From NCBI RefSeq assembly GCF_002910915.1, contig NZ_NEUF01000081.1, forward strand, positions 1 through 64,000: a DNA stretch of 64,000 nucleotides. Direction: 5' to 3'. Both the position numbers and the translations under genes were made by a program. How positions within the stretch are numbered: position 1 is the stretch's first letter; the number at the start of each line of letters is the position of its first letter. A model generated the notes under the pieces. The model was not told where the DNA came from. It searched no databases and saw only the letters and a list, made by a program, of their open reading frames with translations. Source of the DNA: Streptomyces sp. SM10 (GTDB lineage: Bacteria; Actinomycetota; Actinomycetes; Streptomycetales; Streptomycetaceae). Below, one piece after another: positions 10,798 to 14,159 of this stretch.

Positions 10798-10992
10798 CTA
10801 AACAATCGTGAAGGTGGTCCACGGGAACTCGTCGCCGGGGCCCGTCTCGCCCTCGGCGGATCTGAGGAGTCTGCTCCGCAGCCCCAGCCCGCCGCTGATG
10901 CCGAGCGATATGCGGCCGGCGGGGTGTTCGGTGCCGCCCGCGTGCGCCGCCGTGGTGTCCGTGTACCCGTTGGATTCGCTGATCTGTGTCAT
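10798..10992 (-). CDS. Putative LanM substrate: 64-aa precursor lacking cysteine
   Basis: The ATG at 10992 is 11 nt after the lanM stop, with GAGG just upstream, so the gene is almost certainly cotranscribed with lanM. The peptide has two Gly-Gly sites (19-20 and 34-35), a basic stretch LRSRLLRS (38-45) and a C terminus DEFPWTTFTIV rich in Thr. It has no Cys, so ordinary (methyl)lanthionine rings cannot form within it. Possible outcomes are dehydroamino acids only, reduction to D-residues, addition of an external thiol, or use by another enzyme. The precursor role rests on size, position and Gly-Gly sites; no family match is recognised. Confidence 0.6.
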   Translation of the reverse strand: MTQISESNGYTDTTAAHAGGTEHPAGRISLGISGGLGLRSRLLRSAEGETGPGDEFPWTTFTIV

Positions 10993-11003
10993 CTCTGCCT
11001 CGT

Positions 11004-14000
11004 CTACTGGTCGTTGGTCGACAATGTCTGCGGTGCGGGGGACCGGTCGGCCCCCGTGGAGTGGCGCATGAGCAGTGCGGAACCGATCCGGTCGGGGAAT
11101 CCCGCCCGCAGCAGTCCGTGTCCGATACCCGACAGGCCGGTGAGCAGCCCGGGGTGAGGCAGGTGTCCGGGCGTCCCGCAGTGCGACTGCGCCCGGTCGG
11201 CGGCGGCCAGCAGGGTGCCGGTCCGACGCAGCCAGTGGGGGCGCAGACGGGGCAGGGCGCCGTGGCCGAGCAGCTCCAGCACGCCCAGCTCGCCGTGGCA
11301 GAGGCTGTCGTCGCCGGGCGGCACGTCCCGCGCCACGTCGTCGGCGTGCGCCGCCAGCCAGCCGGAGAGTTCCGGATCGGCCAGGGCCCCGGGGCTGTCC
11401 GCGACCGCGAGTGCGACGCCCGCCACCCCCTCGCACCAGGCTCCGCCGTCCTGTCCGCCGCGCGTGGCACGGCGCAGGGCGTCCAGTCCGGCGCTCCGGT
11501 AGTGCGCACCGCCGCCCGCCCCGGCGAACCGCAGCAGCGCCCAGCCGATGCCCGCCGCCCCGTCCGCGAAGCCAGGGGACGCGGGGAGTGGTGCCTGCGC
11601 GATCCGTTCGGCGCAGTGCCCGGCGCCGCCGAGCGCCTCCTCCCGGCCCGTGGCCCGGTGCACCGCGAGCAGGGACACCAGCCCGCCGGCCGCCCCGCCG
11701 CGCACCCCGAGACCATCCTCCGCCGAACTCGCCGCGCGGCACAGCCGGGTGGCCGGCCCCGCCCAGTCCCGTATCCCGGGGTCGTCCAGCAGCGTGCCGA
11801 CCTCGGCCAGGGCGTACGCGATGCCGCCGAGCCCGGCGAAGGCGCCGGAGCCGAGCACCCCGAGGTCGTCCCCGCGCTGGTGCAGCACGTCCAGGAGACC
11901 CGGCACCGGCGCCAGCGCGGCACGCGCCGCCTCGGCGTACCGGGCGGCCCCCGTCAGCGACGCCAGCTGGGCGAGGAAGAGTGCCGGTCCCGTGTAGCCG
12001 CCCGCGAGATCCGCGGCCAGCGGCGTGAGGCGCCAGTAGCGCTCGCCGAGCAGCTCCAGGCCGATCCAGTTGGCCCGGCCCCCGCCGTGGTAGGCGAGCG
12101 ACACCAGTTGGTCGCCCACCGACCGTGCGGCGGAGAGCAGGCGGTCCGGTTCCGGGGCGGTCGCCTCGGTCCGCGGCCGGCCGCGTCCGCGGGCGCGGTG
12201 CGGGGGCTCGGTCGAGGTGCTCACCATGGCCGTGCGGATGATCCGCTCCTGGTCCTGCCGGTCCACCGTGTCCAGGGCGAGGAGCTTCGCCTCGACCCGT
12301 GCCAGGCCGGTGGCCGTGGAGCCCGCCACCCTGTGGCCGTTGCCGCTCCACACCTCCGCGGAGCCGGGGCGGGAGGTGAACACCGGTACGTCGCCCTGCC
12401 ACAGCTCCGCGATCTCCTCGTCCTCCAGGCCGGGCAGCGCGGGAGTGCCGAGAGCGCCGGTGCGCAGCAGTGCGAAGACCTGCTGCCGTTCGGCGGCGTC
12501 GCGCATGAGGTCGGGGTGGGTCGACTCGTGCAGCAGCGTGGCGTACGTATGGGTCGGCCGGGGCACGAAACGGATCTCGTCGTCCGCGAAGAGGCTCAGC
12601 AGCCCTTCCGGGCCCAGTAGTTCGCCGCGGGAGTCGCTGACCGCCGTGTACGCGGCGCGGAATCCGTCGCACAACACGTCGGTGAACCGGAACGGATCGG
12701 CGCGGACCCCGTCCAGCGTGGGGACGTTGGCCGATTCGGCGAACCGCCCGGTGGTGCGCACCAGATGCATGGTGTCGGTGCCCGCCGCGGCCCAGGAGGC
12801 CGTCTCCAGCGGTGAGGACGCCGCCCGGCCGCCGCCGACGGCGGACATGTCGAGGGCGGTGGTGTCCCCGACCAGCAACTGCGGGAGCAGGCCCACGCGG
12901 TGGACCGAGACCTGCAGGGCCCCTGCGGCCGGATCGGCGGGCGGGGCCTGCGTCAGAGGCGGGTGGAACAGCGTCTCCACGTCGACCAGGACGGGATGGG
13001 GACCGCAGGCGATGAGGTTCTCGTGGTGCAGGTCGGTGCCGTCCAGGACGTGGAGGAGCGCCAGCAGCGCGCCCAGGCGCCGGTAGAAGAGCGTGGTGTC
13101 GGCCGTCGAGCGGCAGGGGGTGTCCTCGATGAACTCCGCCCAGCCGTACGCACCCCGGTCCAGGACCCGGGGCGTGCGCAGACCGGGCGTCCCGGGGAGG
13201 GAGCTGAACCACTCGACCAGAGTGCCGAAGTGCCGGTGGGCGGCGAGCGGACGCGGCTTGTAGACCAGCCGGGACCCGTCGGTGAACCGCAGCAGCATCA
13301 CCGACCTGCCCCCGCGATGACTGTCGCCCGTGCCGACCGTCACCCCGGACAGTGCGTGCGGCCCGGAGCCGGCGGACCGCCCCGCACTCCGGGAGCCGAA
13401 CACGGCCGAGGAGAGCAGGAGTTCCTCGTCGGCGGCGAGCCTGAGGAGCATCTCGGCGAAGGCGTCCGCCGCGTTCATGGCCGCCTGCGCGAGGATCCTG
13501 GCCAGGACCGGATACCCGGTGACCAGCGAGGTGAGGCCGGTACGGCTCCCGGTCAGCCGCAGGAAGTGCCGGAAGCGCTCGCGGGGCTCCTCCCCGTTCA
13601 GCCTGCCGCCCACCCGCGCCGTGTGCAGCTCCGAGACGAGGGTCCGGGCGGCGAGCAGGGCCAGGTGGCGGGCGACGTGGCGCCGGAAGCCTTCCAGCAC
13701 GGCGGCGGGGCAGGAGCCCGGACCCGGCCGGCCGGCCTCCCCGGAGACCGCGTCCGTCAGCCGGTCCGCCGCCCGGTCCGCGAAGGGGGCCACGACGACC
13801 TCGAAGCCGGTCAGCTCCGGGTACTCCCGGTCCGCGACCCGCGCCTCCCACGACGCGCCCGCCACGGTCTCCCGGACGAACCGGGCCCAGCCGGGTTCCG
13901 TACCGGGGTACGGTCCGGCCGTGCCGGGAGCCCACCACGGGGCGCCGTGTTCGCCTGAGCCGGAAAGCGGGGTGCGGTGCTCGCCGGAGCCGGAGCCGGA

Positions 14001-14159
14001 GCCGGAGCCGGACTCGGAGAACGGTGTGTCGCCGTGCTCGCCGGGGCCGAGGAGGCGTCCGGTGTCCGCCAGAGGGGCGCGGTCGGGGCCGTCGAGGTCC
14101 GCCAGGGGGCGCGGGGCGTTCGCCCGGCCCGTACCGCCGATTGCTTCCCTCTTCACCAC
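11004..14159 (-). CDS. Class II lanthipeptide synthetase LanM
   Basis: This 1051-residue enzyme would dehydrate Ser/Thr and close thioether rings. The N-terminal DUF4135 dehydratase has the kinase-like SRLVYKPRPLAAHRHF and HHENLIACGPHPVLVDVETLF, conserved for ATP use and phosphate elimination. The C-terminal LanC-like domain (about 690-1051) keeps the zinc ligands Cys909 (WCEG) and Cys954-His955 (LCHGE). Both activities therefore look intact, which is odd given the cysteine-free peptide next door. The GTG at 14159 was chosen because GGGGAGG lies 8 nt upstream; an ATG at 14210 lacks a ribosome site. It heads the minus-strand block lanM, precursor, LAL, SARP. Confidence 0.92.
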   Translation of the reverse strand: MVKREAIGGTGRANAPRPLADLDGPDRAPLADTGRLLGPGEHGDTPFSESGSGSGSGSGEHRTPLSGSGEHGAPWWAPGTAGPYPGTEPGWARFVRETVAGASWEARVADREYPELTGFEVVVAPFADRAADRLTDAVSGEAGRPGPGSCPAAVLEGFRRHVARHLALLAARTLVSELHTARVGGRLNGEEPRERFRHFLRLTGSRTGLTSLVTGYPVLARILAQAAMNAADAFAEMLLRLAADEELLLSSAVFGSRSAGRSAGSGPHALSGVTVGTGDSHRGGRSVMLLRFTDGSRLVYKPRPLAAHRHFGTLVEWFSSLPGTPGLRTPRVLDRGAYGWAEFIEDTPCRSTADTTLFYRRLGALLALLHVLDGTDLHHENLIACGPHPVLVDVETLFHPPLTQAPPADPAAGALQVSVHRVGLLPQLLVGDTTALDMSAVGGGRAASSPLETASWAAAGTDTMHLVRTTGRFAESANVPTLDGVRADPFRFTDVLCDGFRAAYTAVSDSRGELLGPEGLLSLFADDEIRFVPRPTHTYATLLHESTHPDLMRDAAERQQVFALLRTGALGTPALPGLEDEEIAELWQGDVPVFTSRPGSAEVWSGNGHRVAGSTATGLARVEAKLLALDTVDRQDQERIIRTAMVSTSTEPPHRARGRGRPRTEATAPEPDRLLSAARSVGDQLVSLAYHGGGRANWIGLELLGERYWRLTPLAADLAGGYTGPALFLAQLASLTGAARYAEAARAALAPVPGLLDVLHQRGDDLGVLGSGAFAGLGGIAYALAEVGTLLDDPGIRDWAGPATRLCRAASSAEDGLGVRGGAAGGLVSLLAVHRATGREEALGGAGHCAERIAQAPLPASPGFADGAAGIGWALLRFAGAGGGAHYRSAGLDALRRATRGGQDGGAWCEGVAGVALAVADSPGALADPELSGWLAAHADDVARDVPPGDDSLCHGELGVLELLGHGALPRLRPHWLRRTGTLLAAADRAQSHCGTPGHLPHPGLLTGLSGIGHGLLRAGFPDRIGSALLMRHSTGADRSPAPQTLSTNDQ

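Follow-up and report, generated by a model that had tools for sequence, protein, structure and literature searches.

Clusters that combine a class II lanthionine synthetase (LanM) with a class III synthetase (LanKC) are already known, as are LanM-associated precursors without Cys, which are not counted as lanthipeptides (Walker et al. 2020, PMC7268733, citing Zhang 2015). PMC11251773 describes peptides with a CxSxxS motif together with an extra peptide that lacks Cys, raises the possibility of a two-peptide complex, and classes the LanMs concerned as zinc CCH. The window analysed here is a stretch of 64,000 nucleotides (nt) from Streptomyces sp. SM10 (contig NZ_NEUF01000081.1, positions 1 to 64,000), in which lanM is followed by a gene for a Cys-free peptide of 64 amino acids (aa). 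The data suggest that this LanM probably dehydrates the adjacent peptide without cyclising it, which would give a short ring-free peptide with dehydrobutyrines. LanM precursors without Cys and their CxSxxS partner had been described before; the decay of the cyclase domain, the wider Cys-free lineage and the loci without LanKC were not found in the literature examined, and the consulted sections of PMC7268733 and PMC11251773 report neither the loss of the cyclase His, nor LanKC-free loci, nor related Cys-free families. Likewise, the literature search returned no experimental study of the cluster and no ring-free product of this kind.

The pair and its relevant residues lie at the following positions of the window:

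10798..10992, minus strand: Cys-free precursor peptide of 64 aa (open reading frame and start, homologues).
10900..10926, minus strand: leader motif HPAGRISLG of the 64-aa peptide (alignment of 15 homologues).
10801..10824, minus strand: C-terminal end P-W-T-T-F-T-I-V, the presumed core or part of it (Pro and both Thr nearly invariant).
11004..14237, minus strand: lanM, with a DUF4135 dehydratase and a LanC-like domain (TIGR03897, PF13575, PF05147).
11562..11564, minus strand: codon of Asp892, in the column of the LanC-type catalytic acid His, GFADG instead of GFxHG (from alignment with orthologues, control LanMs and known structures).
11430..11435, minus strand: zinc ligand Cys935, then Glu936 (place of LanCL1 His277 and CylM Lys876).
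11295..11300, minus strand: zinc ligands Cys980 and His981.

LanM is 1077 aa long counted from the ATG, with an alternative GTG start at 14159 being equally plausible, and it scores 669 bits against TIGR03897 (cutoff 304), with further matches to PF13575 and PF05147. Its dehydratase motifs GDSH, YKPR, DLHHEN, DVETL and RPT are all intact, as they are throughout the orthologues, and the zinc ligands (Cys909, Cys954 and His955 if numbered from the GTG) stand in the motifs WCEG and SLCHG. The open reading frame of the peptide, MTQISESNGYTDTTAAHAGGTEHPAGRISLGISGGLGLRSRLLRSAEGETGPGDEFPWTTFTIV, begins 11 nt past the LanM stop, has a GAGG ribosome site, and encodes nine Thr, six Ser and no Cys.

A Cys-free 64-mer is unremarkable alone, because Cys accounts for 0.92% of the residues in the window's called genes and the probability of finding none in 64 residues is 0.55; the significance therefore rests on conservation. 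Of 199 genomes, 15 encode a homologue, the window genome among them, and there is one weak and doubtful match besides; homologues are also encoded at 38 GTDB loci, of which 37 are titled Streptomyces and one [Kitasatospora] papulosa, with S. griseus, S. globisporus, S. anulatus and S. microflavus among them; the two sets overlap, and their counts are not additive. No Cys is present in 33 of the 38 GTDB peptides; in three others a Cys lies in the linker ahead of P-x-TT, in two it lies in the leader, and in all 38 the near-invariant P-[WYFL]-T-T end has no Cys after it. Chance loss of Cys, possible for one peptide, is thus not credible for the whole family. Among the positions invariant in 15 aligned homologues are P24, G26, G31, R39, R41, P57, T59 and T60, and the peptides of the window and of [Kitasatospora] papulosa differ with a ratio of nonsynonymous to synonymous rates (dN/dS) of about 0.35. 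This closer pair is quoted because the value over all pairs (pN/pS = 0.71) comes from uncorrected proportions at high GC. Profile scans matched the window peptide to no NCBIfam or Pfam family, TIGR03898 included; its leader type shares HPAG.I.L with that of the precursor paired with a related LanM (G135); this precursor contains Cys, and its leader does match TIGR03898.

The conserved His of LanC-type cyclases protonates the enolate (His219 in LanCL1, His212 in NisC and His835 in CylM; PMC9934072, see also PMC9889658). In LanMs this column is the motif GFxHG, as fixed by alignment to LicM2, GCR2 and LanCL2, and the window LanM reads GFADG there, with Asp892 in place of CylM His835. The wider LanM sample comprised 148 genomes of the order and the GTDB loci. 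The column holds D, E, N or Q in 34 of 34 readable GTDB LanMs, His in none, and D, E, N, T or Q in the orthologues of the other set, while all 13 control LanMs from outside the lineage have the His. The zinc ligands (C, C, H) are conserved in the orthologues; the first zinc Cys is followed by Glu in the window, mostly by E, D or G in the window's clade (A) and by Arg in a second clade (B). The predicted structure of the cyclase domain is of moderate quality (mean pLDDT 67, pTM 0.72), and a structure search with it returns LanC-type folds; it is too weak for side-chain placement, so the assignment of the His column rests on the sequence alignment.

The first-pass annotation had described an intact LanM followed, 11 nt on, by a Cys-free Ser/Thr peptide, and the reading frame, the coordinates and the residue counts confirm this pairing. 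The word intact holds for the zinc ligands and the dehydratase motifs, but the lost catalytic His was missed. The Thr-rich end had been named as the natural target, in agreement with the near invariance of both Thr of P-x-TT across 39 sequences. Whether all homologues lack Cys, a check proposed at the time, has a mixed answer, since 5 of the 38 GTDB peptides have the leader or linker Cys mentioned above and two loci of the 199-genome set (L027 and L028) encode peptides that end in Cys.

One explanation for a cyclase domain that has exchanged its His is that it was repurposed, so that a zinc-bearing LanC-like domain with Asp or Glu for His would attach another nucleophile (water, an amine, or a small thiol supplied in trans) to the dehydrobutyrines. 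The zinc ligands are invariant despite the loss of the acid His, Asp and Glu are the dominant replacements, and LanCL enzymes are known to add glutathione in trans (PMC9934072). However, the residue is variable (D/E/N/T/Q, with R, F and T in relatives), which resembles relaxed constraint, and a sister family, recognised by its VLTSGIVITLS precursors, has no zinc ligands altogether, so that repurposing appears unlikely. The lost cyclase residues could also mark a decaying, non-functional locus, but dozens of species keep full-length frames, the dehydratase motifs are intact and the peptide end is almost invariant, which makes this extremely improbable.

The favoured explanation is dehydration only. 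LanM would bind the HPAG-type leader of the adjacent peptide and phosphorylate Ser and Thr towards the peptide's C-terminus, chiefly the two conserved Thr of P-W-T-T-F-T-I-V; elimination of the phosphate would produce dehydrobutyrines. No thioether ring would be formed, because the peptide has no thiol and the LanC-like domain has no acid His; the latter probably does not cyclise and would be retained for a structural role or to bind the substrate. The expected product is a short linear peptide that contains dehydroamino acids, with its leader probably cleaved near the conserved Pro; we infer the substrate, the residues modified, the absence of rings and the cleavage site, like any role of the product, from the genes and their conservation. 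The Pro before TT, together with a prolyl oligopeptidase in the clade B loci and an S8 protease in a block shared by both clades, makes a cut near this residue plausible. Excised LanM dehydratase domains suffice for dehydration, and the dehydrazole enzyme LanMbC yields eight dehydro residues and no rings (PMC10676384).

Three arrangements were seen among the loci compared. In clade A the order is LacI; LanM, peptide, LuxR (LAL) and SARP; and then LanKC, a transporter of the major facilitator superfamily (MFS) and a peptide with an LDLQ leader and a C-V-S-x-x-S core, encoded at 1277-1435 in the window. The clade B loci (G041, G057, G015 and G004) carry LanM, peptide, LuxR and SARP followed by a prolyl oligopeptidase of family S9, and lack both LanKC and the CxSxxS peptide. 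The third, G075, has only LanM, peptide, LuxR and LacI, again without LanKC or the CxSxxS peptide. Almost every locus read keeps LanM and the peptide side by side, and the LuxR gene follows them. In G041 the precursor stands right after a polyketide synthase-like reading frame and LanM lies at the edge of another contig (L026 7332-10359, G041:C231; G041:C1:170-2983), due to either an assembly artefact or a real rearrangement.

Because loci without a 1277-type Cys peptide retain the LanM-peptide pair, the adjacent 64-aa peptide is the likely substrate of LanM. A different LanM substrate encoded elsewhere, with the 64-aa peptide left unmodified by this enzyme, would have a precedent in LanMs that modify distant substrates, such as those of the prochlorosins (PMC7268733). 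Nevertheless, the tight adjacency, the co-inheritance over dozens of species and the leader motif shared with the mersacidin/lichenicidin-type precursor of a related LanM make it very unlikely, and no hidden Cys-containing precursor was present directly downstream of LanM in the homologous loci inspected. The 1277 peptide in particular, which the first-pass annotation had given as an example of a substrate elsewhere, travels with LanKC in clade A and is disfavoured as the LanM substrate by the clade B and G075 loci. A second, Cys-containing precursor, which would have spoken against the pairing, is thus literally present in clade A, but with its own synthetase (LanKC) and leader type. Of the remaining options listed there, D residues are unsupported, as no LanJ-type reductase was seen among the neighbours in a scan that was not exhaustive; a new type of ribosomally synthesised and post-translationally modified peptide overstates the case, given that published LanM and LanKC clusters already include Cys-free LanM precursors; and a product with only dehydrated residues is the best fit.

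The same loci bear on a system of two peptides, in which a dehydrobutyrine of the LanM peptide would take up, in trans, the Cys of the LanKC-made CxSxxS peptide, or both peptides would act jointly once mature. Clade A shows synteny of both peptides and both synthetases, the CxSxxS peptide carries one invariant Cys in ten aligned homologues, and a two-peptide complex has been suggested in PMC11251773. On the other hand, clade B and G075 lack LanKC and the CxSxxS peptide but retain the LanM pair, and the Cys could equally add to a Ser of its own peptide, so that we consider this quite improbable.

Dehydration only also accords with a wider lineage, in which related LanMs pair with other precursors without core Cys. 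In one family, whose precursors end in VLTSGIVITLSSxDTSVS, the LanM zinc ligands are gone and the acid His is usually gone; other Cys-free relatives have Arg (G128, G131 and G037), Phe (G028) or Thr (G279) at the position of the acid His. The VLTSGIVITLSSxDTSVS end is itself almost invariant (L093 11711-11911, with LanM at 8072-11608; also L094, L118-L125 and L129). G135 encodes a more distant LanM that has an intact cyclase and whose precursor contains Cys. A tree of 45 LanMs, rooted by midpoint only, shows the window family and the VLTSGIVITLS family as one clade each (100/100), both within a supported clade (100/99) that leaves out G135. If the placement of another relative, G122, holds (86/74, under the strong threshold), the cyclase would have been damaged at least three times. 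This pattern is the main reason why the Cys-free pairing is read as a functional change and not as an annotation gap. By a narrow balance of probability, a whole LanM lineage in Streptomyces and related genera may have abandoned ring formation, and its several conserved Cys-free precursor families (P-[WYFL]-TT, VLTSGIVITLSSxDTSVS and others), each beside a LanM with a decayed cyclase, would form an unrecognised class of ring-free dehydroamino-acid peptides. By-eye reading of translations places MbtH-like and nonribosomal peptide synthetase-like genes next to LanM in related Cys-free families (L093 4947-5198; L097 1-899 and 11754-11975).

Several points weigh against dehydration only. Conservation of the zinc ligands is complete in the window family, and the domain may therefore continue to use zinc. 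LanKC cyclases function without zinc, so a missing residue is no proof of inactivity. G122 (L095 6865-10168) pairs a Cys-free precursor of 66 aa with a LanM whose zinc site and catalytic His are both intact, which means that Cys loss and cyclase loss are not strictly coupled. Furthermore, the terminal Cys of L027 and L028 and the linker Cys of a few homologues do not fit, and the precursors of the control LanMs were mostly not read for Cys.

The rest of the window cluster comprises:

7802..10717, minus strand: large LuxR-type (LAL) regulator beside the precursor (PF13191, PF00196).
5705..7777, minus strand: SARP/AfsR-type regulator, start uncertain (PF03704, PF00931; clades A and B).
3004..5718, plus strand: LanKC, class III lanthionine synthetase, start uncertain (NF038151, 841 bits; clade A loci).
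1485..3032, plus strand: MFS transporter, start uncertain (PF07690; conserved along with LanKC).
1277..1435, plus strand: class III precursor of 52 aa with LDLQ leader and C-V-S-x-x-S core (alignment of 10 homologues).
1..953, minus strand: radical SAM protein, truncated where the contig ends at window position 1 (gene call; clade A and B homologues by the same cluster; PF04055 in homologue L052).

The LAL regulator is the most constant companion of the pair, found in 14 of 14 related loci compared, and the C-V-S-x-x-S core is the published 'reverse labionin' motif (PMC11251773). Clades A and B share a block of genes for radical SAM, haem-oxygenase-like, adenylate cyclase/AAA, S8 protease and GAF proteins, which lies beside the LanM cluster (window 1-953; L052 1318-8177; L060 1643-8660) and contained an aroma-sacti-domain protein (81 aa, no Cys) wherever this was looked for. 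The S8 gene of the block in the window genome sits on another contig, 4.3 kb from its beginning, which fits a contig break at window position 1.

If dehydration only is correct, genome-mining tools that demand a Cys overlook a family of modified peptides that is conserved, and ring-free dehydroamino-acid peptides would have a natural source in these enzymes. A reported oddity, Cys-free peptides accompanying LanM that a large survey set aside as non-lanthipeptides, thus becomes a testable claim of dehydration-only LanMs. Among known systems, the cluster is a member of the class II/III hybrid clusters (subfamily C, PMC11251773), with LanM, LanKC, the single-Cys CxSxxS precursor and the Cys-free peptide all present. 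Class II synthetases such as LicM2 and CylM, from systems with mersacidin/lichenicidin-type precursors, have the domain order, dehydratase motifs and zinc ligands of the window LanM, and the HPAG leader motif of the window peptide recurs in a related mersacidin-type precursor; unlike those systems, the window system has Asp for the catalytic His and a precursor without Cys. Measured against strict class II lanthipeptide criteria, the LanM domains and zinc ligands are present, and the catalytic His and the core Cys are absent. The cyanotins and prochlorosins (PMC7268733) also include LanMs with some Cys-free precursors, but there one LanM serves many diverse precursors, whereas the window system has one dedicated and conserved precursor. 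Like the dehydrazole synthetase CcaM/LanMbC (PMC10676384), the window LanM would be a LanM-type dehydratase that gives dehydroamino acids without thioether rings; no YcaO was seen among the neighbours in a scan that was not exhaustive, and in contrast to the dehydrazole enzymes, whose cyclase domain has no zinc ligands and which have a YcaO partner, the window LanM has kept its zinc ligands.
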